From the NCBI GenBank assembly GCA_022360055.1, contig JAKSDO010000263.1:1-62866 (forward strand): a stretch of DNA of 62,866 nucleotides, written 5' to 3'. Origin of the DNA: Cytophagales bacterium (GTDB lineage Bacteria > Bacteroidota > Bacteroidia > Cytophagales > Cyclobacteriaceae). Positions 12,904 through 42,708 of the stretch are shown piece after piece. The notes under the pieces are model-generated. The model ran no database searches. It was not told where the DNA came from and saw only the letters and a list, made by a program, of their open reading frames with translations. Numbering within the stretch: position 1 is the first letter of the stretch; the number at the start of each line of letters is the position of its first letter. Both the position numbers and the translations under genes were made by a program.

Positions 12904-12992
12904 GTGTTTATATTTTTCAGGTCGCTGACACACAGAGAAATACAGCCATGCTCGTGTGTGTCCTGAATTTGCTCCGGCCGTGCCTGTTTCAT
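12904..12992 (-). repeat. Type A leader unit, copy 2 (89 bp), ends on the trpD start codon
   Basis: In the sense of trpD the unit starts ATGAAACAGGC and ends AAAAATATAAACAC directly before the trpD ATG, so the words AAACACATGAAA flank it on both sides. GACACACA pairs with TGTGTGTC across the middle. The first hairpin has one mismatch. An open frame of 30 codons crosses the unit and its TGA overlaps the trpD ATG (ATGA), which could couple translation. The A-rich end resembles Bacteroidota translation-initiation regions. Confidence 0.85.
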
Positions 12993-13083
12993 GTGTTTAA
13001 AATTTGCAGAAACCTCACCATGTGCCATTGATCATCATGATCTTGTATATCTCAATAATTATCTCAGGCATCGCCTGTTTCAT
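12993..13083 (-). repeat. Type B leader unit, copy 1 (91 bp), upstream of the type A unit
   Basis: Starts with the same TTTAAACACATGAAACAGGC border as type A, then the perfect hairpin CAGGC-GAT-GCCTG. After that it differs from type A: GAGATAATTATTGAG, a GATCA-TGA-TGATC stem and GTTTCTGCAAATTT at the end. It abuts A2 through the shared border. About 80% identical by eye to the copy at 40951-41041, with differences spread along its length. Confidence 0.8.
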
Positions 13084-13147
13084 GTGTTTAAAGTTTTGAG
13101 TCGGAATCCGGAGGGCCCGTGAATTGAGTACCTCAGCTCTTCCGCTT

Positions 13148-13720
13148 TCATACTTCCAGCCAATTCTTTATTAACTGTTTCCCGTTTTCCGTCAAAATGG
13201 ATTCGGGGTGGAATTGCAGTCCCCTCACCTTAAATTCTTTATGACGAAGCCCCATCACAATCCCATCATCGTCCAGCGCATTTGTTTCCAGCATACCATT
13301 TACCGTATTGGCGGCTACCGCCCAGGAATGGTATCGGCAAACCGTAAATCGCTCCGGGATGTCCCTGAAGAGGTAATCGTCTTTCAGTTTCAACGTCACC
13401 TTGGTTCCCACTCCGTGCAATACCTCCTGCATATTGTATAGCTCGGCACCGTAAACTTCTCCGATGGCCTGGTGTCCCAGGCAAATCCCGAGGATATTTT
13501 TAGTCGGGCCGTATCTTCTAATCAGTTGCAGCAGGATACCGGCTTCGGATGGAATTCCAGGCCCCGGAGACAAGAGAATTTTATGGTACCTGTCCACGTG
13601 ATCGAGTGTGATTTTGTCATTTCGATAGACATCCGTTGCTTCACCATAGCCAAATTCACGAATCATATGAACGAGATTATAGGTAAACGAATCGTAATTA
13701 TCCAATACAAGTATTCGCAT
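13148..13720 (-). CDS. trpG: Anthranilate synthase, glutamine amidotransferase component
   Basis: 190 residues, class I amidotransferase. The triad is Cys in ILGICLGHQAIG (about C79) and His/Glu in LQFHPESIL (about 170-172). LVLDNYDSFTYNL at the N-terminus and the oxyanion LSPGPGIP are typical. It supplies ammonia to TrpE. Its ATG directly follows the trpE stop (TAA-ATG). The gap to trpD (244 bp) holds the B1 and A2 repeat units. Confidence 0.96.
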   Translation of the reverse strand: MRILVLDNYDSFTYNLVHMIREFGYGEATDVYRNDKITLDHVDRYHKILLSPGPGIPSEAGILLQLIRRYGPTKNILGICLGHQAIGEVYGAELYNMQEVLHGVGTKVTLKLKDDYLFRDIPERFTVCRYHSWAVAANTVNGMLETNALDDDGIVMGLRHKEFKVRGLQFHPESILTENGKQLIKNWLEV

Positions 13721-15139
13721 TTAGCTATCCATTTTATCCGCTTCTTCAATTGCCGTTCGCAATGCGGCCAATTTGTTGTTAACTTCCTGCAATTCGTTTT
13801 CTTCCCTGGACTTGGCGACGACACCGGCACCCGCCTGGTAATACAGCGTATTATTTTTACTCAAGAAAGACCGGATCATGATGGCGTGATTAAATTCTCC
13901 GTTAAATCCCAGAAAACCAATGGCGCCTCCGTAGTATCCCCTTCCCGTGTTTTCATACCGGTCGATCAATTCCATTGCCTTGTGCTTTGGCGCCCCGGAA
14001 AGCGTACCTGCCGGAAAGGTATCGGCCACCATCCGGATCGTATTTGTTCCTTCCTCCAGCTTGCCGACCACTTTCGATACCAGGTGAATGACATGAGAAT
14101 AATACTGAATCTCCTTAAAGGTCTCGACCCGCACATCCGTCCCGTTTCTGCTGAGGTCATTTCGCGCCAGGTCGACCAGCATTACATGCTCGGAGGTCTC
14201 TTTTTCATCTTCGGAAAGCTTCTGAGCCAAGGCCGCATCTGCCTGATCGTTCCCTGTTCTCCTAAAAGTACCGGCAATAGGATAGATGATGGCTTTGTCG
14301 TCTTTGATCACGATCTGCGCTTCCGGAGAAGAGCCGAATATCTTAAAGCTTCCGTAATCGAAATAGAACAGGTAGGGCGACGGATTCACGGATCTCAAGG
14401 AGCGATATACATTAAACTCATCCCCCTGAAAACCCGAATGGAAGCGCCTCGACAATACAATCTGAAATACATCTCCTCTGTGGCAATGATCTTTACCCCT
14501 GGAAACCATGTTCAAAAATTCTGCATCCGTAACATTTGATGTTTCATCGTTATTCCATTTAAACCGGTAATCCGGGAAGTTTTTACTCCTTACCAGGTCC
14601 GTAATTTCCTGAAGGTTTGTCCCGGAAGCATCCTCCTGAAACAGATGATCAAAAATATACATCTCATTTTTGAAGTGATCGATCACAATGATATTCCTGT
14701 AAACCGTGTACAAAATATCCGGAATGGCGTATTGATCCTCCTTGGAATCCGAAAACTTGATATCCTCAAAATACTGTACCGCATCGTACCCGACATATCC
14801 GAATAGTCCTGAAGTTATGAACTTAAAATCCGATGGCGCTACCGTAAATGCTCCCATGAAGGCACTTAATTCCAAAATGGCCTGCCTGGGATCTTCGAGT
14901 ATTTTTGATTCCGATGATTTGTCCGGCCATTCAATTGAAATGACGTTATTTTTCAAACTGAATGTCGCTATGGGGTTGCAACATACATAGCTGTAGCTGT
15001 TTTCCGATCCGTGGTAGTCCGAACTTTCCAGGAGGATCGAATTGGCAAAATTATCTCGCAACTTCAAATAAATGCTCACCGGTGTAATGACATCGGCCAG
15101 CATTTTGGAATAATGACTTTTAAGCGTGAAATTTTTCAA
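13721..15139 (-). CDS. trpE: Anthranilate synthase component I
   Basis: About 472 residues if it begins at TTG 15139, giving MKNFTLKSHYSKMLAD, which matches the usual Bacteroidota TrpE N-terminus. The next ATG (15103) would cut conserved residues, and the longest open frame (15175) starts inside the attenuator hairpin. The N-terminal LLESSDYH region carries the Trp feedback site. The chorismate-binding half has SPEAQIVI, PIAGTFRR, LARNDLSRNG, VSKVVGKL, FPAGTLSGAPK and YYGGAIGFLG. It makes anthranilate with TrpG. First structural gene after the attenuator. Confidence 0.95.
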   Translation of the reverse strand: MKNFTLKSHYSKMLADVITPVSIYLKLRDNFANSILLESSDYHGSENSYSYVCCNPIATFSLKNNVISIEWPDKSSESKILEDPRQAILELSAFMGAFTVAPSDFKFITSGLFGYVGYDAVQYFEDIKFSDSKEDQYAIPDILYTVYRNIIVIDHFKNEMYIFDHLFQEDASGTNLQEITDLVRSKNFPDYRFKWNNDETSNVTDAEFLNMVSRGKDHCHRGDVFQIVLSRRFHSGFQGDEFNVYRSLRSVNPSPYLFYFDYGSFKIFGSSPEAQIVIKDDKAIIYPIAGTFRRTGNDQADAALAQKLSEDEKETSEHVMLVDLARNDLSRNGTDVRVETFKEIQYYSHVIHLVSKVVGKLEEGTNTIRMVADTFPAGTLSGAPKHKAMELIDRYENTGRGYYGGAIGFLGFNGEFNHAIMIRSFLSKNNTLYYQAGAGVVAKSREENELQEVNNKLAALRTAIEEADKMDS

Positions 15140-15160
15140 GATATCAATATTTAAACAAAT

Positions 15161-15185
15161 AAAAAGGCTCGCCAAACGACGAGCC
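15161..15185 (-). terminator. trp attenuator terminator hairpin
   Basis: On the minus strand GGCTCG (15185-15180) and CGAGCC (15171-15166) form a perfect 6 bp stem with an 8 nt loop. TTTTTATTTG follows immediately. It lies between the leader-peptide stop and trpE, 21 bp before the chosen TTG start. This is an intrinsic terminator in the attenuator position (segments 3:4). Confidence 0.85.
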
Positions 15186-15202
15186 CAGTATAATTTTTTA
15201 CA

Positions 15203-15256
15203 ATAGGTCTCTGTTTAGCCCGGGATCTTAATCCTGTGCCACCACCAAAGACCTAT
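15203..15256 (-). promoter_or_regulatory. Attenuator segments 1 and 2 (alternative pairing)
   Basis: ATAGGTCT (minus strand, 15256-15249) inside the leader ORF is the perfect complement of AGACCTAT (15210-15203), which starts 4 nt after the leader stop codon. This is segment 1:2 of a classical attenuator. GAGACC of segment 2 can also pair with GGGCTC of the terminator's first arm with one A-G mismatch, giving an antiterminator 2:3. A ribosome held at the Trp or His codons covers segment 1; one at the stop covers segment 2. Confidence 0.7.
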
Positions 15257-15277
15257 ATGATGTATTCCGTTTTTCAT
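15215..15277 (-). CDS. trpL: trp leader peptide with WWW and three His codons
   Basis: A 20-codon frame reading MKNGIHHIGLWWWHRIKIPG then TAA. Codons 11-13 are TGG-TGG-TGG, the hallmark of a Trp-sensing leader. Codons 6-7 are His-His and codon 14 is a third His. The frame lies upstream of a perfect 1:2 stem and an intrinsic terminator before trpE. It is the control peptide of attenuation: scarcity of charged tRNA stalls the ribosome and opens the operon. The His codons matter because hisH-A-F-IE lie at the end of the same run. A -7-like TGTATTTG lies at 15306-15313, but without a well-placed -33 box. Confidence 0.85.
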   Translation of the reverse strand: MKNGIHHIGLWWWHRIKIPG

Positions 15278-15561
15278 TGCGGCCCAAAATTAGAAAAGGG
15301 TATTTCAAATACAAAGTCTTTTATCTTTTTTATTTTCAAGGCAAATCAAAATATTATTTGCATTCGGGCGCGGACGCAAAACTTTATTAATGAAAGGGTT
15401 AGAGGTACCCGCGCCTTACCCGAAAGAAATAAATAAGCGATCAATGCGTTTTAAAAGCAGGTTTTTACTAAATTCAGGCATACTTTTAACTCAAGTTTTG
15501 GAAGATTATTTCGAACACCTTTTTTTTATCCCAATATCTATTTTGAAAAAAAACAAATATC

Positions 15562-16458
15562 ATGGAATTCACTTACAGTAAGTTTTTAGCGATATGGCAA
15601 GTGTTTGCATTAGTGCTCTCCGGTCTGGCTATTGTCACCGGTATCGTGATCTTTATTTTACATAAACTCAGATTTTCCTCCATTAGAGACTATAAGCAGA
15701 AATACGACTATCTGGCCGCGAATGACTCCAAAATGATTTATTATGTGATCATAAGTTTTGCGGTTGCCCTAACCCTGTTCATTAACACGGTCTACAATGC
15801 TACGGTACAAATAAGCTATGTATGGTTTTTCGTAAGGATGTTTATCGCGATTTGTCTGGGAACCCTGATCATATACATCTCTTACTTAATGATGAAGTTT
15901 GCCTACCCGTCAACTTTGGAAAAAAAGATGAAAAAATGGCGATACAAGCCGAGAGTCAATAAAAAGACCGGAAACGTCATGAAGTTACTGAGCGAAGAGG
16001 AAGAAGATGTTCATTTGGACGAGGGAATGCAGGCGGAAGAAAACGTATTTTCCGTGGACTATGATGTATGGGTAGACGAAGAAAGCGGGGATGTGCAAAT
16101 CGAGAAATATCCGGGGCATCTTATTGCTCATCAATGCAATTCTTGTGGTTTTAAAACGATGAAACTGGTAAAAGAAGAGATTATTCTAGCTCCTACGGAG
16201 CATACGGATGGCGAGATGATAAAAAATTACCAATGCTCCTATTGCAAGGCAAAACGGACCAAAACCGTGAAAGTTGCAAAGTTATCGCAAACCGAATCGC
16301 ATTACGAACTCCCTGTCCATCTGCATTTCAAGGAAGAAGAGAAGGTAAATATGGTTACTATCGAACTGAATATCAGCAACGGAAAGACAAAGATTTACGA
16401 GTTTACTTCTACAAAACAGGCCAGCGAGTTTTTGAAGGAGTATAAACTTGAGGATTGA
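15562..16458 (+). CDS. Membrane protein with C-terminal zinc-ribbon-like Cys pairs, function unknown
   Basis: 298 residues, not recognised as a named family. Three hydrophobic segments (about 8-33, 58-78, 85-112) are followed by a basic stretch and a soluble C-terminal part. That part has QCNSCGF near 191 and QCSYCKAKRTK near 226, two CxxC knuckles about 35 residues apart that could bind one zinc. The tail repeats a short SNGKTKIYEFTS element and ends acidic. The Cys region would face the cytoplasm if the N-terminus is outside. A strong terminator follows (16483-16505). It points away from trpL, with a shared upstream region of about 285 bp. Confidence 0.7.
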   Translation: MEFTYSKFLAIWQVFALVLSGLAIVTGIVIFILHKLRFSSIRDYKQKYDYLAANDSKMIYYVIISFAVALTLFINTVYNATVQISYVWFFVRMFIAICLGTLIIYISYLMMKFAYPSTLEKKMKKWRYKPRVNKKTGNVMKLLSEEEEDVHLDEGMQAEENVFSVDYDVWVDEESGDVQIEKYPGHLIAHQCNSCGFKTMKLVKEEIILAPTEHTDGEMIKNYQCSYCKAKRTKTVKVAKLSQTESHYELPVHLHFKEEEKVNMVTIELNISNGKTKIYEFTSTKQASEFLKEYKLED

Positions 16459-16482
16459 CGCTCCAACGGACATAACATGTTT

Positions 16483-16505
16483 GAGGGCCTTCGGGCTCTT
16501 TTTTT
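16483..16505 (+). terminator. Intrinsic terminator with TTCG loop
   Basis: GAGGGCC-TTCG-GGCTCT stem (one G-U) followed by TTTTTTT. It ends the transcript of the zinc-ribbon membrane protein and lies before the start of the hydrolase, so the hydrolase needs its own promoter. Confidence 0.85.
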
Positions 16506-16563
16506 ATGTTCAAACAATTCGTACATTGCTTTGTTCATAATTTCACTATCAAATACTTCAAAC

Positions 16564-17502
16564 TTGAAGATCAGGCTGTTATTCGCTGTCAAAATATTGG
16601 CCGCAATATTTGTTTCATTGATTGTATTACTTCGTCTCGAGATCATAGGAAGTCCAATGCAGAATATGTCGTTTCGATATTCCGACAAACAAATTATAAA
16701 GCAGTTCATAAATTCCGGTCAAAAACCACAGTTAAAATACCATGCATTCAACGACCGTACAATCAGGTACCTGGTACGGAAAAATCGTCCCGGTTTGCCC
16801 ACGGTGGTATTTATCCATGGAGCTCCCGGGTCCCTGTCCGATTATTCGAGATATTTTGGAAATGAGGCGTTGTTTGCAAAAGCAAATCTAATAAGCGTAG
16901 ACCGGCTGGGTTATGGCTATTCGGGGTTTGGCAAATCCGAAACATCGATCCGCCTCCAGGGCAAGGCAATCCATTCGATTATACGGAATGAATGTGAAAA
17001 CAGTGAAATTATACTGGTGGGGCATTCCTATGGCGGACCTGTCGCCATTCAAATGGCGATGGACTTCGGAGACGGATACAAGGCCGTAATTTTGTTGGCT
17101 CCCGCCCTTGATCCCGGACACGAAAAGAAAATAATGCTTGCCCGCCTGCCGGCATATCAGCCCATTCGATGGCTGACACCGCCGGCGCTCCGGGTGGCCG
17201 CGGATGAAAAGAACACGCATGTTGCCGAACTAAAAAAAATGCTGGGCAGATATGATCTGATTAAAATCCCCGTTTGCCATATTCACGGGACTTCGGACTC
17301 CCTGGTGCCCTATGAAAATGTAGCGTTTTCCCGGAGAACCATCTCTCCGAAATGGCTCGAAACGATATCCCTGGAAAATGTTGATCACTTTTTGCCCTGG
17401 TCACACTATGATCTGGTCGTCGACAAAATACTGGAGATCGCATCCGGCCACGGACTAAGCTCCGAGCAGGTTGGTAATGGCAATTTTTCCTATACCAATT
17501 AA
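16564..17502 (+). CDS. Alpha/beta hydrolase, membrane-anchored
   Basis: About 313 residues from TTG 16564 (MKIRLLFAVKILAAIF), which gives a clean signal anchor. The frame is open further upstream, but that would start inside the terminator. The fold is shown by the oxyanion motif FIHGAPGSLSDY, the nucleophile elbow VGHSYGGP (Ser), LLAPALDP, the acid Asp in HGTSDSLVPYEN and the catalytic His in LENVDHFLPW. The substrate is unknown. It faces the periplasm. Its last 48 bp overlap the 3' end of the convergent GH2 gene. Confidence 0.8.
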   Translation: MKIRLLFAVKILAAIFVSLIVLLRLEIIGSPMQNMSFRYSDKQIIKQFINSGQKPQLKYHAFNDRTIRYLVRKNRPGLPTVVFIHGAPGSLSDYSRYFGNEALFAKANLISVDRLGYGYSGFGKSETSIRLQGKAIHSIIRNECENSEIILVGHSYGGPVAIQMAMDFGDGYKAVILLAPALDPGHEKKIMLARLPAYQPIRWLTPPALRVAADEKNTHVAELKKMLGRYDLIKIPVCHIHGTSDSLVPYENVAFSRRTISPKWLETISLENVDHFLPWSHYDLVVDKILEIASGHGLSSEQVGNGNFSYTN

Positions 17503-19752
17503 AAGGGAAGTGGTAAACAGGATAACGAATACCGCCCACATGACCAGCCTTTTCAGTTTATGCCGTTTCCGGATATTTCTGATCCCGAAAAACCAAACGA
17601 GTATTGAAAGCACCATACCCCCACCCGCTACGGGATAAGCGATCGACATAAAATCAAAAACCTTAATAAAGAGGTTCATTCCGGTGTACGGATTCTCCAG
17701 CACCCATACGCAATCGTCTGTGTATGCGATGCCATCTTTTTCGGCTTTCACAATGATCCCATTATTTCCTTCGTTGAGTTCGATGCCTTCCCACAGGATG
17801 ATCCCTTTTTCCGGTGATCTCACCGGATATTCTTTTCCGTTGACGGTCAGGCTCACCTCACTCAGGTTTGTATAGACTTTGACATTTGTTTTTGCCTGAT
17901 CCCTGAATACGTAACGCGAAGAAGTAATATGCAATACAGGCGCATCGGACCAATTTGCTTTGTAAAAATAAAATGCATCTTTTTTTGTCTTCCGGTCGTA
18001 GGTGATCATTCCTTTATCGTTGATCCCATAGCGATCTCCTTCCCGTCTGAAATGGGATCCGAAATCAAACATATTCCATATAAATGTCCCCCACACAAAA
18101 GGCCGTTCATCAAATATTTTTAAATTTTCTTCATGGTAGTAGGATTGCCATTCTTCGGGGTGGGGCGATCCCATCGGGTTGGGCGCCTCCAACTCGTCGG
18201 AATGCTGATGGATACTTCCTCCGGCTCCATATTCGCTGATGCCGATTTTATATTCCGGAAAATCCGAATGCGTTTGATCGAGAAATTTTCCCATATCTTC
18301 CGGCTCCTTGTAATACCAGCCATAATACCTGTTCCATGCAATTAAATCCGTGATTTCATGGAGGTTGGCGTGCTCTTGCGGATTGAGCATACTGGCGCCC
18401 ACACTTAACCTATCGGGGTCTTCCTCTTTTACAATCGAATTCAGTTCTTCCACAAATTCCGTAGGCTCGGCTCCTTCCGGGTTTTGAATTTCATTGAAAA
18501 TGCTCCACATTAAAATGGACGGATGGTTGTAATTTTGGCGTATTAGCTCGTATAGCTGCTGTTTGGCGATTTGATGAAAAACATCCGTGTTCTCATAACC
18601 GTTTGAAGTCCCCATAAAACCACCCGGGCCTCCTACCCATGGCAATTCGGCCCAAACGATAAGACCTGCAGAATCCGCAAGATCGTAGACAATCTCAGCA
18701 TGTTGGTAATGGGCGAGGCGCAAGGCATTGATCCCCATTTCGAGCATCAACTCCATGTCTTCCCGATGATCCGCATCCGAGAGTGCGGATCCTTTGCCCA
18801 ACCGGTCCTGGTGTCTGCTTACTCCTCTTACATCGACCGGCACTCCATTTAAAAAAAATCCCTCATCGGCATCCGCATGAAAAAATCTCAGACCCAGCGG
18901 CTCTGTTTTCGAGTCGATTACCTCATCATTTTGTAAAAGGTCCACTTTTACCTGATACATATACGGATCCTTCCTACCGTTCCATAAATGCGGATTATTG
19001 ATGATATAGGAATGCGACAATTCATGCGCTCCGACATCGATTTCAATCTCATTGATTTGAGCATCGATCACTTTGCCGGCCTCATCAAGAATCGTCGTTT
19101 GGTAGGATATCGTTTGCTCTGCGCCCGATCCATTTGAGATTTTTGTAAGCACGGTAACATCTGCATTTTCTTTGCTTACATTTTGCTGTCTCAGGTAAAT
19201 CCCCGAAGAGGCAAAATCAAGCGGAGTAATGCAAATCGGATGTGTAAATAATAAATTCACCGGGCGGTAAATTCCTCCGTAATTATTGAAATCGCCGACG
19301 AGTGGGATTACTTCAAGATTCTCTTCATTATTCACGATCACTTCAATCGTATTTTTTTGATTGTACAGGATGTGCTCCGTAATCTCAAAACAAAATGCGG
19401 CATAACCTCCTCTGTGCTCACCCAGTTCGTGCCCGTTAATCGTAACTTTTGAGGAAATATTCACACCTTCGAACCGGATAAAAATGCGCTGCCCGGACCA
19501 GGTATCGTCGACATCAAAATTCTTTATATATGTTCCGGATCCCCGATAATAATCGAGTCCCCGCTGGGCATCCGTTGCATTCCAGGTATGGGGGAGGTTA
19601 ACAATCTCATCCCGCTTAAGTCCCGTTACGGAATGTCCCTGAAAATTCCATTGCTTATTAAAAGGAATTTCCCTGCGATTTTGAGCGTTCAGATCCGATA
19701 ATACGCAAAAGGTGCCCAAAGCAAAAAGGGCAAGAAAAATCAGTCGTCTCAT
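17455..19752 (-). CDS. Glycoside hydrolase family 2 enzyme with C-terminal membrane hairpin
   Basis: 765 residues. A signal peptide (to about LNAQ, 24) is followed by the GH2 sugar-binding domain (jelly roll, RGSGTYIKNF, NNYGGIYRPV), the Ig-like domain and the TIM barrel. Barrel motifs are RGVSRHQDR, RLAHYQHAE, the acid/base in WSIFNEIQ (about 415) and the nucleophile in GISEYGAGG (about 500). The class is beta-galactosidase/glucuronidase-like. Unusually, residues after about 700 contain two transmembrane helices around the basic RNIRKRHKLKR. This would tie the enzyme to the inner membrane with the catalytic part in the periplasm. A TAAATTTG -7 box lies at 19778-19785. Confidence 0.88.
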   Translation of the reverse strand: MRRLIFLALFALGTFCVLSDLNAQNRREIPFNKQWNFQGHSVTGLKRDEIVNLPHTWNATDAQRGLDYYRGSGTYIKNFDVDDTWSGQRIFIRFEGVNISSKVTINGHELGEHRGGYAAFCFEITEHILYNQKNTIEVIVNNEENLEVIPLVGDFNNYGGIYRPVNLLFTHPICITPLDFASSGIYLRQQNVSKENADVTVLTKISNGSGAEQTISYQTTILDEAGKVIDAQINEIEIDVGAHELSHSYIINNPHLWNGRKDPYMYQVKVDLLQNDEVIDSKTEPLGLRFFHADADEGFFLNGVPVDVRGVSRHQDRLGKGSALSDADHREDMELMLEMGINALRLAHYQHAEIVYDLADSAGLIVWAELPWVGGPGGFMGTSNGYENTDVFHQIAKQQLYELIRQNYNHPSILMWSIFNEIQNPEGAEPTEFVEELNSIVKEEDPDRLSVGASMLNPQEHANLHEITDLIAWNRYYGWYYKEPEDMGKFLDQTHSDFPEYKIGISEYGAGGSIHQHSDELEAPNPMGSPHPEEWQSYYHEENLKIFDERPFVWGTFIWNMFDFGSHFRREGDRYGINDKGMITYDRKTKKDAFYFYKANWSDAPVLHITSSRYVFRDQAKTNVKVYTNLSEVSLTVNGKEYPVRSPEKGIILWEGIELNEGNNGIIVKAEKDGIAYTDDCVWVLENPYTGMNLFIKVFDFMSIAYPVAGGGMVLSILVWFFGIRNIRKRHKLKRLVMWAVFVILFTTSLLIGIGKIAITNLLGA

Positions 19753-19777
19753 TTCAATTGTTTGGATTAATAGTTGT

Positions 19778-19785
19778 CAAATTTA
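19778..19785 (-). promoter_or_regulatory. Candidate -7 element (TAAATTTG) of the GH2 gene
   Basis: Perfect TAnnTTTG about 25 bp upstream of the GH2 start codon. No TTG at the expected -33 distance, so support is partial. Confidence 0.35.
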
Positions 19786-19851
19786 TATACCTGAAAATTT
19801 CCATGCGTCCCGGTCGCATAACCTGGACGAAAAATATATCCGTACGAATTG

Positions 19852-20670: not shown

Positions 20671-20738
20671 TCGTATGTAATTTTGCTGTCCTAAAGGTAA
20701 ATAGAATGATTGGCATTCAAATCAAAAAAGCTGTTCGA

Positions 20739-21899: not shown

Positions 21900-22022
21900 A
21901 AGGCAGTTGGTTACTACTGTGAGGATTACAAGATATCAATTCTCTCGAAAAAATAGCATATCTCATCAAGAATAAACTATTTTTGCTGTCGAATTTTGAT
22001 TATCGATTTAACAAGTATTAGA

Positions 22023-22397
22023 ATGGAATTCAGGGCATTAGAACAACTTATTTCCGATACGGCCGCACTCAAGGGAATCGACAAAAATACGATCGTAGAA
22101 GATCTGGCCGATTTTTTAAAAATGAAATACAGTGTCGCGATCATGGAAAAAGAAAGGGATCTGATAGATGAAGTAAAAAATAAAGTCCTTACCAAATTGT
22201 ATAATGCAGACAATCACAGTGTAAGCTCCAGTAAGGACCTGCAAAAAACCTTTAAGCTTGATCTGCTGGAAATAGATTATCTCGATACCGGAATAGATGA
22301 ACTGATACAGGAGGGAATCGTAAAATCATCCAAGGCAGCATATGTACTGACAAAAGAAGGGGTAATGAAATTTAAGGAGTTTTACGGGGAGATCTGA
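22023..22397 (+). CDS. Small helical protein, function unknown
   Basis: About 124 residues from ATG 22023 (MEFRALEQL); a TTG at 21996 is the alternative. Predicted mostly helical, with a C-terminal part (YLDTGIDELIQEGIVKSSKAAYVLTKEG) that reads like a winged-helix hairpin. It carries no signal peptide. It stands alone between divergent and convergent neighbours. Confidence 0.6.
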   Translation: MEFRALEQLISDTAALKGIDKNTIVEDLADFLKMKYSVAIMEKERDLIDEVKNKVLTKLYNADNHSVSSSKDLQKTFKLDLLEIDYLDTGIDELIQEGIVKSSKAAYVLTKEGVMKFKEFYGEI

Positions 22398-33305: not shown

Positions 33306-33374
33306 TTTTAACAAAAATTAAATAAGTAACAGTTTAATAAATCCTTTTAATACAATGGGCCCCAAAGATAATTC

Positions 33375-35018
33375 TTACCTTTTCCCGGTTACATCCGCTT
33401 TAATCCTATCTCCCCAACCCAATCCATTTAACGGATAAACATGATTTTCTTCGGCCCACTTTTCCCAAAGCAAACGCAGTTCTTCGGCAATCTGAGGTTG
33501 CTCTCCGATCAGATCAACTGTTTCTGTCCGGTCTGCGGATATGTCATACAATTCCCAAGGACCTTCGTAAGGCGCTTCCCTCGTACCGATCGAAACCAGC
33601 TTCCACTTCCCATCGATCACCGCCCGATGTGCTTCGTGCTCAAAAAACAATGGCCCCCGTTCAAATGCATCTCCGGTCATGCCGGTGACCAGGCTCATCC
33701 CCTGTACGGGAAGTATTGGTTTCCCGTTAAATTCCGACGGATATTCTACACCGGCGACATCCAGAATTGTCGGCATCAGGTCGATGACATGGCCGACCTG
33801 ATCGGTTATTCTTCCGCCGGACCGGATCTTCTCGGGCCAATACACGATCATCGGAGTGGCGATCCCTCCTTCATGATTATAATGTTTGTACATTCTGAAA
33901 GGCGTATTGCTAACATTTGCCCAATGTATCCGATAACTTTGAGCGGGTCGTTCATTGCCAAGCAATGGCAACTGCTCAAGGGATAATCTCCCTCCCTGCC
34001 CCTCGGCGCACCCTCCGTTGTCGGAAAGGAATACGATCATGGTATTATCCAGTGCACCGTGTCTTTCGATCGTTGAAATTATGTCTCCGATCCCCTGATC
34101 CATACAATCCATTTGTGCGGCATAAACCGCCATTCTCGCCTCCCATATTTGCCGCTCTTCACCGGTAAGGTCTTCCCAGGCCGGCACGGAGGGATCGCGG
34201 TCAGACAAAGACCAGGCAGAGTCAATAAATCCTATTTCTACCAGTTTTTCATATCTGCGCTTTCGGTGCTCATCCCATCCATCCATGAATTTTCCCCGGT
34301 ATTTTGATATATCTTTCCGGAGGGCATGCAGCGGCCGGTGGGGGGCATAATAAGCTACGTAAAAGAAAAATGGCCGGTCTTTTTTCTCTTTGAAATGATT
34401 TTCCAGAAAACTGACCGTGGAATCGGTGATGGCGGTTGTCAAATAGAATTCTTCCGGAGCTTCAATCCGTTCATTATTATAAGTAAGTGTCTCGGGGTTA
34501 TAATACCCTCCGCCACCGGACAAATGGCCATAATATCTATCAAATCCGCGCTGCAAAGGCCAATTGTGCTTTGGCCCGTCTGCTTTCATATAATCATCAT
34601 ACATAATGTGCAGTTTACCGGTCATGTAGGTTGAGTAATCGGCTTGTTTGAGTGCTTGTGCAATAGTAATGCACCGGTCATTCATATCTCCGGTGTAGCC
34701 GGGCGCACCAAGGTTCGAAACGGTCATCCAGCCGAGACCTGTGTTATGCGCATAAAGCCCGGTCAATAAAGATGCGCGCGTCGGGCAACATCTGCCCGTA
34801 TTGTAGAAACGGCTGAACATCAAACCCTCCCGAGCAAGTTTATCGATATTGGGTGTTTCAATTCCCGACCCCATGAAACCGGGGTCGGAAAATCCCATAT
34901 CATCTACCAGGATCAGGATGATATTTGGCTTTTTAGCAGGATCATCCGAATTACTGCACGAAAGCAAACCGGCAATTACAAACAACAATAAAATACGTTT
35001 TGTCCATGTATATTTCAT
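33375..35018 (-). CDS. Sulfatase (S1 family), arylsulfatase-like
   Basis: 547 residues from ATG 35018. The frame is open for 30 more codons, but those are leader unit A3, not sulfatase. Lipobox LLSC at 21. Metal ligands VDDMGFSD, FGly motif CCPTRASLLTG (Cys about 77), FLSDNGGCAEGQGG and the C-terminal WKLVSIGT with LYDISADRTETVDL. The Thr in CxPTR is an accepted variant. If translation began at 35108 the lipoprotein signal would be buried, which argues for 35018. TATCTTTG (33363-33370) near its 3' end could be a -7 box for the gene at 31836. Confidence 0.92.
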   Translation of the reverse strand: MKYTWTKRILLLFVIAGLLSCSNSDDPAKKPNIILILVDDMGFSDPGFMGSGIETPNIDKLAREGLMFSRFYNTGRCCPTRASLLTGLYAHNTGLGWMTVSNLGAPGYTGDMNDRCITIAQALKQADYSTYMTGKLHIMYDDYMKADGPKHNWPLQRGFDRYYGHLSGGGGYYNPETLTYNNERIEAPEEFYLTTAITDSTVSFLENHFKEKKDRPFFFYVAYYAPHRPLHALRKDISKYRGKFMDGWDEHRKRRYEKLVEIGFIDSAWSLSDRDPSVPAWEDLTGEERQIWEARMAVYAAQMDCMDQGIGDIISTIERHGALDNTMIVFLSDNGGCAEGQGGRLSLEQLPLLGNERPAQSYRIHWANVSNTPFRMYKHYNHEGGIATPMIVYWPEKIRSGGRITDQVGHVIDLMPTILDVAGVEYPSEFNGKPILPVQGMSLVTGMTGDAFERGPLFFEHEAHRAVIDGKWKLVSIGTREAPYEGPWELYDISADRTETVDLIGEQPQIAEELRLLWEKWAEENHVYPLNGLGWGDRIKADVTGKR

Positions 35019-35108
35019 CTGCTTACATTTTCTTAGATTGTAGACAAACAGAGCAATATAATCATGCTCGTGTGTGCCCTGAGTTCGCTCCGGCCATACC
35101 GGTTTCAT
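35019..35108 (-). repeat. Type A leader unit, copy 3 (90 bp), ends on a sulfatase start codon
   Basis: Sense-strand start ATGAAA then CCGGT-ATG-GCCGG (stem with one G-U). GGCACACA faces TGTTTGTC with a single mismatch, and GAGCA faces TGCTC. The last base touches the ATG at 35018. Because its length is a multiple of three and no stop occurs, the unit's mini-frame (MKPVWPERTQGTHEHDYIAL...) runs in phase into the sulfatase. Confidence 0.85.
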
Positions 35109-35119
35109 CGGATTGACCT

Positions 35120-36634: not shown

Positions 36635-36751
36635 AATTTGAAATTTTTCAGTATGATCTGTTGCTGCTTTGACGAATGACCGGGCTGTAATTTCCGGGTA
36701 TTTCGAAATGGCGTTCGCATCATAAAACATGTTTGACGGCATTCGACAGGG

Positions 36752-38356
36752 CTAATCAACGGTCACTTCGCTTCCCCACCAGTTGTTGTCCGGATCAAAG
36801 TCCGGCGATAGGAAATTCTTTCGTTGCCGCTCAAGTCTCGGCAGGCGTACCTCCCTTACATGATCCAGGTATTGCTTTTCCTTTTCAGCATCGTATTCGG
36901 GGTCCCTGGCAGGAAAACGGGCGCCCATTTCATCGAGCAGGGCAAACAGTTTTTCACTCATTGCTTTTACCAGTTCCGGATGCTCTCCGGAAACGTCCGT
37001 CGTTTCTTCCAAATCATTTTTTAAATGATACAATTCTTCTCTCCCGTCTTCGTAGTAATGGATCAGCTTCCAGGCGCCCTCACGAATGATCGACGAAGGT
37101 TCCCCGCCCTGGTTCCCGTAGTGCGGATAATGCCAGATCAAAGGACGGTCTTCAAGTGTCCCGCCTTCGAGTATGGGAACAAGGCTTTTTCCGTCCAAAT
37201 GTTGCTCCGGCTTCAACTCCAAACCTGCCAATTCCAAAATTGTCGGGTAGAAGTCTGTGCCGGTGGCGGGAGTTGAGGTAGATCCACCGCCGTCGGTAAC
37301 GCCCGGCACTTTGATGAAATAGGGCTCCCGGATGCCGCCTTCAAACTGATATCCTTTCCCGGCCCGCAACGGCAAATTGGAGGTAGCGAAGGCATCCCCT
37401 GCGGCAACACCGCCATTATCCGATGTAAATACGATAACCGTATTGTCCGCTAACCCGAGTGCATCCACGGCTTTCAATACTTCACCGACAGCATCGTCCA
37501 TGGCTTCGACCAACCCGGCATAGACCGGGTTGTCCTGTACCTGGCGAATCGGCAGAAAATGTCCCATTTCAAAACCTGTCTCTGCAATTCCGGCTGCTTC
37601 CGCTTTCCGTTGATACTTTGCCCATTTTTCTTTGGTGGTCTGAATCGGCCCATGAACCGCATAAAAAGCCAGATAAGCAAAAAACGGCTGTCCGGTGACC
37701 TTCGGATCATTATGTCTCATAAACTCCACCGTCTCAAGCGCCAGGCGCATCGATAGGTTCTCACCGTCCGGACCACTTTCCAGATTGGGATTATTCCACG
37801 GCGCAAAATATCCGCCATGAGGACTGCCGACGTCCCATCCGCCTTTGTTTACATCGAATCCATGGTGTTCGGGCCAGGAAGTCGAATCGCCCAAATGCCA
37901 TTTGCCTGCAAAGAACGTCTTATAGCCGCCTTCCTTCATCGCTTCCGGCAGGGTAAGGGCTTCGGCCGAAAGTTTGCGCACGTATTCGGGGGGCAAGAGT
38001 TGATTAAACCGGCCGGCTTTTCTCCATTCCTCGCCTGTTTTTGCCCCAATCCAGTCCGTAATCCCATGTCGCGCCGGAAAAGTTCCAAGCATGATGCTGG
38101 CTCTTGAAGGACTGCATACCTGGCAGGTAGCATAGCCTTCCCGGAAGACCATACCTTCGTTGGCGATCCTGTCTATGTTCGGAGTTTCATAATATTTACT
38201 GCCTGTCACGCCCAGATCATGATATCCAAGGTCGTCGGCAAGAATAAAAATAAAATTGGGCCTTACTGTATTTCCCGGTTTTCTTTCGTCCTTATTAACA
38301 CAACCGGCCATAAAGAAAACCACGACCCCCAGGATTGAAAAAATTTTATAAGTCAT
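36752..38356 (-). CDS. Sulfatase (S1 family)
   Basis: 534 residues. Lipobox MAGC at 19. LADDLGYHDLG, FGly motif CSPSRASIMLG (Cys about 81) followed by ARHGITDWIG, KWHLGD, FTSDNGGVAAG and the C-terminal LIHYYEDGREELYHLKNDLE. The tail has a typical extra helix (EKEKQYLDHVREV). It is the first gene of the four-sulfatase block and has a TACATTTG box upstream. Confidence 0.93.
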   Translation of the reverse strand: MTYKIFSILGVVVFFMAGCVNKDERKPGNTVRPNFIFILADDLGYHDLGVTGSKYYETPNIDRIANEGMVFREGYATCQVCSPSRASIMLGTFPARHGITDWIGAKTGEEWRKAGRFNQLLPPEYVRKLSAEALTLPEAMKEGGYKTFFAGKWHLGDSTSWPEHHGFDVNKGGWDVGSPHGGYFAPWNNPNLESGPDGENLSMRLALETVEFMRHNDPKVTGQPFFAYLAFYAVHGPIQTTKEKWAKYQRKAEAAGIAETGFEMGHFLPIRQVQDNPVYAGLVEAMDDAVGEVLKAVDALGLADNTVIVFTSDNGGVAAGDAFATSNLPLRAGKGYQFEGGIREPYFIKVPGVTDGGGSTSTPATGTDFYPTILELAGLELKPEQHLDGKSLVPILEGGTLEDRPLIWHYPHYGNQGGEPSSIIREGAWKLIHYYEDGREELYHLKNDLEETTDVSGEHPELVKAMSEKLFALLDEMGARFPARDPEYDAEKEKQYLDHVREVRLPRLERQRKNFLSPDFDPDNNWWGSEVTVD

Positions 38357-38385
38357 TTGTTTTTAGATTAGGTATTTGACACCCT

Positions 38386-38393
38386 CAAATGTA
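38386..38393 (-). promoter_or_regulatory. Candidate -7 element (TACATTTG) upstream of the four-sulfatase block
   Basis: Perfect TAnnTTTG about 30 bp upstream of the 36752-38356 start codon, in a 146 bp gap after the GH2 gene. No clear -33 TTG. It suggests that the four sulfatases can be transcribed separately from the SusCD part. Confidence 0.35.
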
Positions 38394-38502
38394 ACTAGAT
38401 TCATTTGAAAAAAGAGGAAAATAAGATCCATAAATCATAGTTTAAACTCACTTACACCGGTCTACCCGGACCTTAGCGGTTAGACGGCTTTACGATCAGA
38501 CG

Positions 38503-40950
38503 CTAAATCCCGGTCTTTATCGCAATCTCTTCGGACAGCAGGCCTTCGCTCTCGGCGACCAGCTTAATATTTCCCGGGGTTTCGGAAGACTGAATAATCG
38601 CCATACATTTTCCGTTAAAAGCTTTCCGGTACGGCTTTACAAATGATTCCAGGCTCGTCGGATCGCCGTTCCCAACAGCTTTTACAACACCTTCGCCTTC
38701 CACGGAAAAATTAATTAAATTGTTTGCGCGCGGGCAAAGCACACCGTTTTCATCCACTACCGAGACGGTAACAAATGCCAGCTCTTTTCCGTCGGCAGGT
38801 ATTTCCCGGCGGTCCGATTCCAATACAATTTTCGCCGGTTGGCCCGCTGTTTTCACAACAGTTTCCCTTACCGGATTATTGTTTTCGTCAAGCGCCACCA
38901 CTTTTAACTCCCCGGGGACGTAGGTTATGTCATCCCAGACCAGGCGATAGGTCGTATACAATCCGGACGGATCTTTTTCCCGAACGCCCAGGCTTTCGCC
39001 ATTCAAAAAAAGTTCCCCTTTGTCGAAACTGCTGTAACAGTGTACCGATACTTTCTGTCCTTTGTCCCAATTCCAGTGCGGCAATACATGAAGCACTTCC
39101 TCGTCCGTCCATTTGGCCTGATAGAGGTAAAAACGGTCTTTGGGGATGCCACAAAGGTCAATGATCCCAAAATACGAACTGCGCGCAGGCCACTCGATGT
39201 TGTATGGCGTCGGTTCTCCGAGATAGTCGAAACCGGTCCAGACATATTCGCCGGCGATGTATTTGAACGAGTCCTGCGCCACAAATTCCCGGTCCGGTGA
39301 GGTTGCCCAACGCGGGAATTCGTTGTCGAACGAACTGGAATGATAAGGATCGCGGGTAAAATGCACTTTTTCAACAGCCGGGAAGAAGTATTCTCCCCGC
39401 GAGCTTACGGTGGAGGCAGTTTCGCTGCCATACATTTTCCAATGTGGAAATTTATTGTGAATAAAGTCGTAATGTTGAGGTTTGTAGTTCCAGCCGGCCA
39501 CATCCACAATATCTGCAAATCCGTTTTTGATTGCTCCCTGCCATTGGTTAAAACCGGCTGTTGTCGGCCGGGTCGGGTCTTCGCGTTTGCAAATATCTAC
39601 CAGGAATTGGCAATATTTCGCCCCGTCCGCAATTCCCTGCTCCCGGATTTCATTTCCTATACTCCACATAATCACCGAGGGGTGGTTGCGGTCGCGACGG
39701 ATGAATGCAACCATATCTTTCTCCGCCCATTCATCCCATAATTTATTGTAACCGTTTTCGGTTTTTGCCATTTTCCATTCATCAAAAGCTTCGTTGATCA
39801 CCAGAAAGCCCATTTCATCTGCGAGATCCAGCATCTCCGGCGCCGGAGGATTGTGACTCGTACGGATCGAATTACAGCCCATTTCCTTCAACAGCTTCAT
39901 CCGGTGGCGCAAAGAAGAGACGTTAACTGCCGCACCTAACGGCCCTAAATCGTGGTGCAGGCAAACACCGTTGAGCTGAACGCGCTTCCCGTTCAGGAAA
40001 AAACCTTTATCGCTGGTGAATTCAAAATAACGAAACCCAAAGGGAGTCTCGTACCTGTCCAATTCTTTGTCCCCGTCCAGGATTCTGGTGACCGCAGTAT
40101 ACAATACCGGAGCATCCACAGACCACAGGTCCGGCGCAACCACTTCCAGGTTTTGTTCCACCGTCGTTTCTTCATCGATATGTACTGCTTCCGAACCGGT
40201 TGACACAAGCACTCCTGCCGCCGAAAGTATCTGGGTTTCGACCGTTACCTCCTTTGATTCACCCGATTTGTTTAATACCGTCGTTTTCAAATCCACTGTT
40301 CCTTTTCCATTCCGGATCCCGGGAGTAGTAAGATACGTTCCCCATTGTTTCACAAAGACCGGATTGGTGACGACAAGACGCACATTCCTGTAAATGCCCG
40401 CGCCGGGATACCACCGCGAGGAGAACGGTTTATTTTCCAGGCGGACTGCCAGTATGTTTTCCTCACCAAATTGTACCTTTTCGGTCAGATCAAAGCCAAA
40501 CGAAGCGTAACCATAAGGCCATTCGCCGATAAATTCACCGTTGAGATATATCCTCGCATGGCTCATGGCGCCGTCAAACTCCACGTGCACGCGTTTATTT
40601 CCGTATGAAGACGGGATGTCCAGGGCCTTGCGATACCATCCGATTCCGAGGTGCGGCAATCCTCCGGTACGCCCGGTACGCATTTTGGGCACCCGCTCGC
40701 CATCTTCGAGCACCATGATCTCCTGTGCGTCAATGGATGAATCAAACTCCCCTGAAATTGCCCAATCATGGGGAACCGTAACGTCTTCCCAATCTTCGGT
40801 ACTGGTTTCGGGCCGGGCTCCTCCCTCCACTTCCGAATTGATAAATTGCCAACCGGTATCCAAAAGCGTCGTCCTGCGCGATTCATGGGTGCCGGTGGTA
40901 CAACCTGCCAGGTAAATGAGGAGTAGGTTAAAAAAAATCAGTCTTTTCAT
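38503..40950 (-). CDS. Glycoside hydrolase family 2, beta-galactosidase-like lipoprotein
   Basis: 815 residues from ATG 40950 (MKRLIFFNLL). Fourteen upstream codons belong to unit B2. Lipobox LAGC at 17. Domains in order: GH2 N-terminal jelly roll (VPHDWAISGEF, WYPGAGIYRNV), Ig-like, TIM barrel with GVCLHHDLGPLG, SIRTSHNPPAPE, acid/base in MWSIGNEIREQ and nucleophile in MYGSETASTV. C-terminal beta domains (DUF4982/Big-like) follow from about 600. It is surface or periplasmic by its lipoprotein signal. Its place among sulfatases suggests it removes a beta-linked sugar after desulfation. Confidence 0.92.
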   Translation of the reverse strand: MKRLIFFNLLLIYLAGCTTGTHESRRTTLLDTGWQFINSEVEGGARPETSTEDWEDVTVPHDWAISGEFDSSIDAQEIMVLEDGERVPKMRTGRTGGLPHLGIGWYRKALDIPSSYGNKRVHVEFDGAMSHARIYLNGEFIGEWPYGYASFGFDLTEKVQFGEENILAVRLENKPFSSRWYPGAGIYRNVRLVVTNPVFVKQWGTYLTTPGIRNGKGTVDLKTTVLNKSGESKEVTVETQILSAAGVLVSTGSEAVHIDEETTVEQNLEVVAPDLWSVDAPVLYTAVTRILDGDKELDRYETPFGFRYFEFTSDKGFFLNGKRVQLNGVCLHHDLGPLGAAVNVSSLRHRMKLLKEMGCNSIRTSHNPPAPEMLDLADEMGFLVINEAFDEWKMAKTENGYNKLWDEWAEKDMVAFIRRDRNHPSVIMWSIGNEIREQGIADGAKYCQFLVDICKREDPTRPTTAGFNQWQGAIKNGFADIVDVAGWNYKPQHYDFIHNKFPHWKMYGSETASTVSSRGEYFFPAVEKVHFTRDPYHSSSFDNEFPRWATSPDREFVAQDSFKYIAGEYVWTGFDYLGEPTPYNIEWPARSSYFGIIDLCGIPKDRFYLYQAKWTDEEVLHVLPHWNWDKGQKVSVHCYSSFDKGELFLNGESLGVREKDPSGLYTTYRLVWDDITYVPGELKVVALDENNNPVRETVVKTAGQPAKIVLESDRREIPADGKELAFVTVSVVDENGVLCPRANNLINFSVEGEGVVKAVGNGDPTSLESFVKPYRKAFNGKCMAIIQSSETPGNIKLVAESEGLLSEEIAIKTGI

Positions 40951-41041
40951 CAGTTTAAAATTTGCGGAAACCTCGCCATGCGCCGTTGACAATCATGATC
41001 TTGTGTGCCTCAATAATTATCTCAGGCATGGCCTGTTTCAT
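40951..41041 (-). repeat. Type B leader unit, copy 2 (91 bp), ends on the GH2 start codon
   Basis: Sense ATGAAACAGGC followed by the perfect hairpin CAGGC-CAT-GCCTG. The loop differs from copy 1 but the stem is identical. It ends GCAAATTTTAAACTG directly at the GH2 ATG. A 28-codon mini-frame ends in TAA shortly before that ATG. The next unit upstream is type A4, so the order A-B here is the reverse of B-A at trpD. Confidence 0.82.
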
Positions 41042-41129
41042 GTGTTTATATTTTTTTAGTTTGCTGACACCCAGAGAAGTATTATCATGCCTGTGTGTCC
41101 TGAATTTGCTCCGGTCCTACCGGTTTCAT
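41042..41129 (-). repeat. Type A leader unit, copy 4 (88 bp)
   Basis: Sense ATGAAA then the perfect hairpin CCGGT-AGG-ACCGG. The second stem GACAC/GTGTC is kept although two or three bases are missing from its apical part relative to other copies. It joins unit B2 through AAACACATGAAA. The unit starts 54 bp after the stop of the sulfatase at 41184. Confidence 0.82.
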
Positions 41130-41183
41130 TGCATAAAAATTTAAATGTTTGTCTTTTGAAGACCCCAAAAGACGGTATTGCCC

Positions 41184-42620
41184 TTATTTGTTTGCCATTA
41201 AATTTGCATTGTATCTGTCTCTTGCCATATAATCCTGGATTTTACCGCCATATGGGAAACCTCTGGTATCCGTTCGCACATCTCGAAAAATTCGATTCAT
41301 TTGCCGAACCAGCTCAGGATAATCGGCAGCGAGATCTTCGGCCTCACAGACGTCTTCTTCCAGGTTGTAAAGTTCTGTGCGCGAATCAACCCCATAGCGG
41401 ACAGCTTTCCAGTTTCCTTTCCGGACCGCTTGCCTGAAACCGCCCTTTGGCAGCTTCCTGTTCCAGCCATCCAACTGCAATTCCCAATAAAGATAGTCAT
41501 GTTTGCCTTGTTTGTTTCCCAGGAGCTCAGGTAAAACAGAAATACCATCTGTCCCGGGAGATCGAATGCCGGCGACTTCGGCCAGGGTCGGCATAAAATC
41601 GTAAAAGGCTCCCGGATGACCGGAAACCCTGCCCTGCTCAATTTTATCTTTCCAAAAAGCAATGAAAGGCGTCCGGATCCCTCCTTCATACAAATCGCGC
41701 TTGAATCCTCTAAGTCCACCGGTGCTTTCAAAAAACAAATGGTCATGGCCTTCATGATGCGCACCATTGTCGCTCGTAAATAAAACCAAGGTATGGTCCA
41801 AATCGCCATCCTGCTCCAACCGCTTTAGAAGTCTTCCAATCTGGCCGTCGAGCAGCGTGATTTTAGCCGCATGTCTGCGCTCGCGCTCCTCCCAGCCCTG
41901 ATCGGCATATAATGCTTTATTGCGAATATAGCGTTCATGGCCATGAGGAATCCGGTAGGACATGAAAAGAAAGAAGGGCTTTTCTTTATCTTTCCGATCC
42001 AGGTATTCCAATGCAAAGTTGGTTCGGAATACATCGATGCAATCGTATTTTTCCTGATCGTAATAGATGGAATCTTTGTCGACGTTGACCCAGTGAACCT
42101 TTTCATCGAACTTTTTCCCTCCAAAGCGGGATTCCCATTGTTCCTGGACCGCATAATCAAATCCGCGGTTCATCGCCCAGGTCGATTCGTCGTTTGGATC
42201 ATCGAGATGCCATTTTCCGATAAAAGCCGTCTGATAACCTGCGTCTTTCATCATTTCTCCCAATGTGATTTCATCCTTTCTCAACGGAACACGTTTCCAA
42301 ACATCATTTTCAAAAATTCCACTGTTGCCGCGAATCGTGGCATGCCCGGCGTGCTTTCCCGTCATGAGTACCGCTCGCGAAGGCGAGCAGACCGATGTGC
42401 CTGCGTAAAAATCGGTGAACCGCATGCCTTGCTCGGCCAGATGATCAAGAACAGGAGTTTTTATCACTTCCTGACCATAAGAGCCCAACTCCCCATATCC
42501 GAGGTCGTCGGCCAGCAAAAACAATATGTTGGGTTTTGCACGTTCAGGCAATTTGGTCTGGCATCCATAGGCTGCCATGATAAAACATAGGATTATAGCG
42601 AAAAGAATTTTATTTTTCAT
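41184..42620 (-). CDS. Sulfatase (S1 family), N-acetylgalactosamine-6-sulfatase-like
   Basis: 478 residues. Lipobox AYGC at 20. LADDLGYGELG, FGly motif CSPSRAVLMTG (Cys about 78) followed by GHATIRGN, KWHLDDPND, FTSDNGAHHEGHD and C-terminal WKAVRYGVD with LYNLEEDVCEAEDLA. Close paralogue of 31836-33305 by the GHxxIRGN and HHEGG/HLEGG surroundings. ATG 42620 is exactly the boundary of leader unit A5. Confidence 0.93.
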   Translation of the reverse strand: MKNKILFAIILCFIMAAYGCQTKLPERAKPNILFLLADDLGYGELGSYGQEVIKTPVLDHLAEQGMRFTDFYAGTSVCSPSRAVLMTGKHAGHATIRGNSGIFENDVWKRVPLRKDEITLGEMMKDAGYQTAFIGKWHLDDPNDESTWAMNRGFDYAVQEQWESRFGGKKFDEKVHWVNVDKDSIYYDQEKYDCIDVFRTNFALEYLDRKDKEKPFFLFMSYRIPHGHERYIRNKALYADQGWEERERRHAAKITLLDGQIGRLLKRLEQDGDLDHTLVLFTSDNGAHHEGHDHLFFESTGGLRGFKRDLYEGGIRTPFIAFWKDKIEQGRVSGHPGAFYDFMPTLAEVAGIRSPGTDGISVLPELLGNKQGKHDYLYWELQLDGWNRKLPKGGFRQAVRKGNWKAVRYGVDSRTELYNLEEDVCEAEDLAADYPELVRQMNRIFRDVRTDTRGFPYGGKIQDYMARDRYNANLMANK

Positions 42621-42708
42621 ATGTTTATTTTTTTAGTTAGCTGACGCAAAGAGAAATATAGTCATGCCCTTGTATGTCCTAAAATTGCTCCGGTCCTGCT
42701 GGTTTCAT
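42621..42708 (-). repeat. Type A leader unit, copy 5 (88 bp), ends on a sulfatase start codon
   Basis: Sense ATGAAACCAGC-AGG-ACCGG. The first stem is weakened in this strand but still pairs with G-U on the complementary strand. The second stem is also weaker, so this is the most diverged copy. Its mini-frame has two stops. The unit ends at the ATG of the sulfatase at 41184-42620. Confidence 0.78.

Follow-up and report, generated by a model that had tools for sequence, protein, structure and literature searches.

The bridge-RNA elements of the IS110/IS1111 type have no simple terminal repeats and a fixed short target. Among shorter repeats, Rickettsia palindromic elements are, in the portion of PMC2229807 that concerns them, non-autonomous and tolerated in conserved genes, where they are fused in frame within proteins. 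Repetitive extragenic palindromic (REP) sequences and REPINs, with their RAYT, are depicted in sections of PMC3116915 and PMC6006769 as short, high-copy, non-autonomous, hairpin-bearing and clustered, and bacterial miniature inverted-repeat transposable elements (MITEs) such as Correia/NEMIS, ERIC and RUP, also non-autonomous and with repeat-like borders, have terminal inverted repeats and TA termini as set out in Table 1 of PMC2229807.

The subject here is a family of units of about 90 nt, of two types termed A and B, seven of which are present in a stretch of 62,866 nucleotides (the window) from contig JAKSDO010000263.1 of a Cytophagales bacterium (GenBank assembly GCA_022360055.1). Very probably the units are a non-autonomous miniature mobile element of a Cyclobacteriaceae genus, with ATGAAA as the hexamer at which insertion takes place and, once inserted, as the border on either side. 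Each copy at the genes tested is lineage-specific and placed precisely on the start hexamer, and the order in an occupied gene is native 5′ leader up to the old ATG, unit of ~90 nt, and resumption of the gene at a second ATGAAA.

Occupied genes and their empty counterparts

Eight unit-bearing genes of the own genome (G000; 7.55 Mb in 300 contigs) were sought in six congeners (G001-G006), with 48 places matched and 30 loci fetched (hisS 6, a carboxylase 7, ElbB 5, trpD 4, adh 4, WcaF 3, ggt 1, yjbQ none; one carboxylase row, at 64% identity, is a likely paralogue). At none of the 30, which cover seven genes, does the gene in question bear a unit, by eye or by profile scan. The clearest cases of insertion are hisS and the carboxylase. 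With hisS the own leader, ...GTAGTTTTGCTGAAATTCTTATTTT, is followed by a unit and then ATGAAAAAACAAAAACC, and the matching congener has ...CTAGTTTTGTGAAAATTTTACATGC and then ATGAAAATTGAAAAACC. With adh and wcaF, the end of the preceding gene is at a matching distance in the congeners. The converse test began from 18 genes that bear a unit in a congener, of which 10 were queried, giving 38 matching places, 30 of them fetched. For seven genes an own orthologue of 60% identity or more was seen, six of the seven being without a unit, and the own orthologues of padR, uxaC and a fadB-like gene are flush, clear empty sites. (The names padR, uxaC, fadB, aroQ, pfkB, trpG, adh, ggt and yjbQ are those we take the proteins to merit.) The seventh, a pfkB-type gene, has different units in G000, G001 and G005 and none in G003 and G004; it is either a hot site or an old insertion with turnover. 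For the sulfatases and the GH2 gene of the window, orthologue searching gave only paralogue-level matches (38-57% identity where read).

An earlier note on this DNA, made from its letters alone, had proposed insertion and had named, as what would speak for an ancestral leader instead, orthologues in close relatives with the same sequence. None of the 30 fetched loci has it, and insertion is supported at the genes tested, the pfkB-type site, occupied in three of five genomes by different units, being the part of the comparison that is less clear-cut. The units are dispersed, lineage-specific insertions with empty orthologous sites, which is the mark of a generic miniature mobile element.

Three weak hits (E 0.0005-0.008) came from the profile scan of the fetched loci, none at the gene asked about: one inside the trpD coding sequence of G001, one a B-like stretch in G005 and one a decayed-looking unit in G006. 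Since the last of these (L121 ~2639-2707, - strand) ends on ATGAGAATATTGGTATTGGAC, by eye the trpG start, the family looks older than the present burst and G006 not quite unit-free.

The units of the window

The seven units and the genes next to them are as follows.

5713..5798, - strand: type A unit, 86 nt, on an ATGAAA that is not a start; hisF (4884-5645) lies 67 bp downstream
11914..12903, - strand: trpD, 329 aa, beginning ATGAAAGAG immediately 3′ of the unit (TIGR01245, 316 bits)
12904..12992, - strand: type A unit, 89 nt, its last base adjoining the ATG of trpD
12993..13083, - strand: type B unit, 91 nt, the 5′ partner of the A unit in the trpD chain
33375..35018, - strand: sulfatase gene, 547 aa (PF00884)
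35019..35108, - strand: type A unit, 90 nt, adjoining the sulfatase ATG
38503..40950, - strand: GH2 beta-galactosidase GalB-like gene, 815 aa (NCBIfam/Pfam)
40951..41041, - strand: type B unit, 91 nt, adjoining the ATG of the GH2 gene
41042..41129, - strand: type A unit, 88 nt, first (5′) in the A-B chain of the GH2 gene
41184..42620, - strand: second sulfatase gene, 478 aa (PF00884)
42621..42708, - strand: type A unit, 88 nt, adjoining the ATG of the second sulfatase

Types A and B alike have ATGAAAC as their first letters and end in about TAAAC plus two bases, after which comes the next ATGAAA. All seven are where the earlier note placed them, every one on the - strand. Also borne out are the flush placement of four chains on an ATG (trpD at 12903, the sulfatase at 35018, the GH2 gene at 40950 and the second sulfatase at 42620; gene identities are NCBIfam/Pfam family matches) and the chaining, B-A at trpD and A-B at the GH2 gene. 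The unit at 5713-5798, for which flush placement was never claimed, is off the hisF start and is followed by ATGAAATAA, which starts no gene. At gathering score the single Rfam match in the window is a tRNA, the units matching no known RNA element. Elsewhere in the window (57582-62864), 39-nt motifs are repeated within the large open reading frames (ORFs) 56946-60332 and 60468-62861; presumably they are FG-GAP/VCBS-like repeats.

Copy number and chains

Genome-wide, the type A core (up to 3 mismatches) has 266 matches as against one for a reversed control, which is beyond chance. The proposal that the sequences spread as units is supported. The main sample, to which the counts below refer, is 1,654,135 bp of own contigs. 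At E<1e-5 it has 102 units, 81 of type A and 21 of type B, and three weaker hits lie beyond that cutoff; its density of 62/Mb is biased upward, the contigs having been picked for having hits. In a hold-out of arbitrary contigs (20 stretches, 180,769 bp) there are six units in five chains, or 33/Mb, and three of the five chains end on ORFs of 400-541 aa. Size is tightly held, 53 of the 81 A units being of 90 nt and 19 of the 21 B units of 91 nt. The 53 A copies of 90 nt are on average 9.9 bases from their consensus (18% pairwise difference), and 18 B copies 6.4 bases from theirs (12%). A border-pair search of 863 kb revealed no new unit type. As to a longer, autonomous copy, the main sample has no unit that covers less than 75% of its model.

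The units form 71 chains: A 46, AA 7, BA 6, AB 5, ABB 2, AAB 2, BB 1, ABA 1 and BAA 1. Because each insertion recreates ATGAAAC, chains would arise by re-insertion or by exchange at the common border. Chained neighbors share the two bases before the ATG in 20 of 31 adjacent pairs (~25% expected), hinting at exchange within chains.

The target hexamer

An ORF start is the end point of 49 of the 71 chains; a further 21 are in intergenic DNA, one falls at the edge of a contig, and no gene has a chain within it. A chain is assigned to the start class when its end is on an ATG in frame with a called gene (ORF of at least 96 codons). Ten of the intergenic chains have a same-strand gene within 300 nt downstream, three of these within 12 nt, and six are antisense between two opposite-strand genes. 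The earlier note had called for such a tabulation of distance and orientation; exact placement on starts holds for the 49, and the 21 intergenic chains, with their six antisense members, do not conform. ATGAAA is at the 3′ border in 46 of the 49 start-class chains compared with 159 of 1064 other ATG starts (p=1e-34), the latter 15% resting on the same simple in-house caller that provided the gene starts; with an assumed true background of 30% the enrichment still has p=6e-21. Among starts with ATGA it is present in 46 of 48 that are occupied and 28% of the others (p=3e-23). ATGAAA as insertion target, as formerly suggested, is thereby borne out. There is no extended motif: when 36 occupied starts are compared with 159 empty ones, no base within 20 nt on either side of ATGAAA differs at p<0.02. 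Around 17-23% of the genes that begin with ATGAAA in the sampled part of the genome bear a unit. As to a duplication reaching upstream of the ATG, position -1 matches in 28 of 71 chains (19 expected, p=0.001), and -2 and -3 do not; such a duplication is rejected.

Unit-free ATGAAA is present at 158 called starts, at 64 other intergenic places that have an ORF of 60 codons or more, at 336 further intergenic places and at more than 2000 places within genes. Starts are favored over intergenic ATGAAA sites with an odds ratio of 3.5 (Fisher p=2e-6), an excess that selection alone could produce. That the machinery recognizes start codons actively, for instance via mRNA or initiating ribosomes, so that starts are the true target, is nevertheless improbable: 49 of 70 classified chains are at starts compared with ~40-46% of eligible ATGAAA sites (p=3e-7 to 5e-5), as it would require, but selection against intergenic insertions could yield an equal excess, and insertions away from starts are seen in either orientation, some of them on stop codons. 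In two intergenic cases (C123:33542 and C178:20636) the insertion overlaps the preceding gene's stop codon, and insertions of the start class are on ATGA stop/start overlaps (C171:34090 of the stretch and C203:197753), where the old copy would keep the stop and the new copy the start. Because non-start ATGAAA sites, stop-codon overlaps included, are also occupied, start codons as such are not chosen. The wording of the earlier note that the units choose start codons therefore does not stand, 21 of the 71 sampled chains being off any start. What is targeted is the hexamer, starts being the sites at which its occupation is tolerated or preferred.

The rebuilt start and the reading frame

The A tail is A-rich, ending about AAAATATAAACGG, and its start context is a good one, as had been suggested: over 41 chains the median score is at the 82nd percentile of 925 native starts and the 96th of 6286 intergenic ATGs. 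Median folding energy (-35 to +30) is -5.5 for rebuilt starts and -5.7 for 200 sampled native starts, the values for 200 sampled intergenic ATGs and for the unit's own 5′ ATG being -9.2 and -9.6. The predicted unpaired probability of the rebuilt ATG, 0.62 over 47 chains, exceeds the 0.56 of the modeled empty site (p=0.02). In Flavobacterium, according to PMC6847099, adenines upstream of the start, together with low structure, tune initiation, rules that the A-rich, low-structure A tail fits; that paper also describes Bacteroidota as a phylum without Shine-Dalgarno sequences. In the start class the 3′ ATG is retained in 47 of 48 chains and the 5′ ATG lost in five of 48. For the intergenic class, the 5′ ATG is kept in 16 of 21 and the 3′ ATG in 18 of 21.

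An alternative is that the old ATG remains in use and the insertion is protein-coding, giving a 30-residue N-terminal extension akin to the Rickettsia palindromic elements. The type A consensus, 90 nt and open in frame through the ATG of the gene, is what such an extension would need. However, stops are present in 29 of the 53 90-nt copies (19.5 in simulation), the amino acid-changing fraction is 0.80 versus 0.76, in 20 of the 21 B units the frame closes before the border is reached, just 10 of the 49 start chains are a lone A unit with an open frame, and the losses of the 5′ ATG just given also count against it. A conserved coding frame of the A unit is rejected, there being no purifying selection on it, and the coding alternative as a whole is highly improbable.

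Given a well-scoring A tail and a 30-codon frame without conservation, the rebuilt second ATG is probably where translation begins. Start insertions would then be nearly harmless and survive, with insertions inside genes being purged. Essential genes seem to tolerate insertion, since it leaves a fresh, apparently usable start signal. A shutting off of the old start by the hairpin of the unit was also considered and is not supported by the pairing probabilities (p=0.24).

Structure, and candidates for a mobilizing enzyme

Because the units encode no conserved protein, the enzyme that mobilizes them must act in trans. A hairpin just after ATGAAA is the sole structure in the consensus of 19 units, and the type A termini, ATGAAACCGG and AAATATAAACGG, are not inverted repeats. 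For B and for some of the forms in G005 the prediction is that GAAAC, close to the 5′ end, pairs with GTTTC, close to the 3′ end. A second hairpin, examined in the 53 A copies, has 88% of cells paired and 21 double changes; for column shuffles the averages are 87% and 12 and the maxima 88% and 21. Its covariation stays within the shuffle maximum and is not strong. In some units of G003 and G005 (L036, L048, L053, L056 and L057), 102-112 nt in total, the 5′ hairpin loop also has a GC-rich palindrome, which looks like a second small palindrome inserted at that point.

An origin from REP/REPIN or IS200/IS605, with movement as single-stranded DNA by a Y1 (HUH/RAYT) transposase, would make ATGAAA the cleavage or target word and the 5′ hairpin, CCGGYANGRCCGG, the recognition hairpin. 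It is consonant with the absence of terminal inverted repeats in type A, with the short fixed target word, with Y1 transposase genes being in seven of seven genomes of the genus, and with the position of the hairpin directly 3′ of ATGAAA, one of whose four consensus pairs is kept by a double change in two B sequences. Set against this, none of 29 Y1 loci (~1.5 kb of flank each) has a unit at E<0.01, and the own Y1 ORFs of greatest length, at 194 and 182 aa, are, by eye, beside other palindromic repeats. ATGAAA precedes the hairpin, whose foot has no GTAG or GTGG, though one or other is elsewhere, e.g. in the loop, in 46 of the 81 A units. The insertion bias to the lagging-strand template that marks IS200/IS605-type elements is not evident when replication strand is assigned by contig GC skew at third codon positions (GC3), although the ratios, 26:23 at starts and 11:10 for intergenic chains, are of low power, a single skew value having been used for each contig; unit-free ATGAAA genes stand at 94:65 by the same measure. 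On balance this origin is unlikely.

Two own RAYT-like ORFs (L148 and L154; G000:C265 and C59) each adjoin their own, different REP-like palindromes. For IS110 there is no PF01548 match in the own genome, which has three reverse-transcriptase matches, all partial; three IS110 loci and three reverse-transcriptase loci are without a unit at E<0.01.

Selection of the units as regulatory leaders, RNA switches or small-RNA targets, recruited to a regulon and with mobility secondary, has in its favor that the 5′ half is conserved across species, that hairpins are present and that starts are favored over intergenic sites by the 3.5 odds ratio. The bearers are, nevertheless, unrelated (trpD, hisS, carboxyltransferase, ElbB, WcaF-type acetyltransferase and sulfatases, by family matches), the only Rfam match in the window is the tRNA, and the second hairpin is within the shuffle maximum. 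The Bacteroidota promoter word, TTG-N17-20-TANNTTTG, is present in none of the 102 units. Such recruitment is accordingly held to be quite improbable.

Points that weigh against insertion at ATGAAA with a rebuilt start

Several observations count against a simple version of insertion with duplication and restart. Given an older family, some empty sites could be losses. ATGAAA is on both borders, as target-site duplication would have it, but two cases point different ways: aroQ of G001 has a 5′ border of ATGGAA and a 3′ border of ATGAAA, with ATGGCA in the empty congeners, and own wcaF has ATGAAA/ATGAGA, its congeners having ATGGCA or another start. Because of these mismatches codon 2 may, in some cases, be borne by the element. 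The start given by the caller coincides with the border ATG in 30 of 49 chains and is upstream in 11, often by the 87-90 nt that lead to the old ATG, and downstream in eight; one start-class chain (C66) is without a 3′ ATG. B tails (eight chains) are only average, at the 50th percentile of native starts and the 81st of intergenic ATGs, and the suggestion of a good initiation context does not extend to them. The rebuilt ATG is not clearly more unpaired than the abandoned 5′ ATG (0.62 and 0.58, p=0.24; 47 chains), and in the ten start chains consisting of a single A unit open in frame from the old ATG an N-terminal extension is possible. Neither a transposase nor a longer element with the unit ends was found.

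Distribution beyond the genome

A model search at E<=0.001 gave 30 matches in G001, 15 in G005, 11 in G003, four in G004 and none in G002 or G006, with one outside the genus, in G015, which belongs to another genus. Of 30 loci fetched, 28 could be placed, 24 of the 28 with ATG exactly at the unit end. Pattern searching of 32 genomes outside the genus gave control-level matches (mostly with 3 mismatches), except for one in G015. An order-wide model search gave no match in 290 genomes, a weak test in which only 15 candidates were scored for each genome, the own one included, and inclusion of the congeners among the 290 is uncertain. The exact congener core is in seven stretches, from three metagenome-assembled genomes (MAGs), of an assembled-contig collection from which records near the own genome may be missing; the named kin of the unit-bearing genus are Cyclobacteriaceae MAGs. 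Plasmids had no core match, and the viral matches of the core look by eye like unrelated coding sequence (four of four). As far as searched, and judged by sequence, the family is seen in one genus and at one locus elsewhere. At that locus (G015:C88:7364-7560; L208/L032) a single A unit is chained to a longer variant of ~100 nt that shares part of A, the chain being between genes that we take to be SusC-like and SusD-like and ending on the ATG of the latter. The unit was possibly carried in with a transferred polysaccharide locus.

Comparison with known systems and significance

Apparently many genes, hisS included, have had their initiation regions exchanged for that of a single element without evident harm. 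The units are thus a natural experiment on what the Bacteroidota ribosome needs to start, and a test of how mobile DNA evolves harmlessness; the enzyme, if found, is possibly a tool for placing leaders exactly at starts.

In their fixed short target and absence of simple terminal repeats the units resemble the IS110/IS1111 elements, from which they are set apart by an own genome without an IS110 transposase match. As short non-autonomous repeats tolerated in conserved genes they are like the Rickettsia palindromic elements, but they precede the coding region, have no conserved frame and end on a start codon. The REP/REPIN features listed at the outset are all shared; unlike them, the units are without GTAG/GTGG at the hairpin foot, have precise ATGAAA borders, chain head to tail in one direction and have no Y1 gene beside a unit in the 29 loci. 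Likeness to the Correia/NEMIS, ERIC and RUP class is in miniature size, non-autonomy and repeat-like borders; type A has neither the terminal inverted repeats nor the TA termini, and its border word is a 6-nt start context. Literature searches gave no paper on repeats targeting start codons. The kind of element is known, and its placement and apparent self-made start appear, by those searches, to be new. A further, tentative proposal, for which the odds are judged a little under even, is of a start-codon cassette with ATGAAA as its site word, its own initiation region replacing that of the gene at each gene insertion, and movement by some recombinase. If true, this mobile DNA would have become adapted to the start of translation in a way comparable with the adaptation of introns to splicing.

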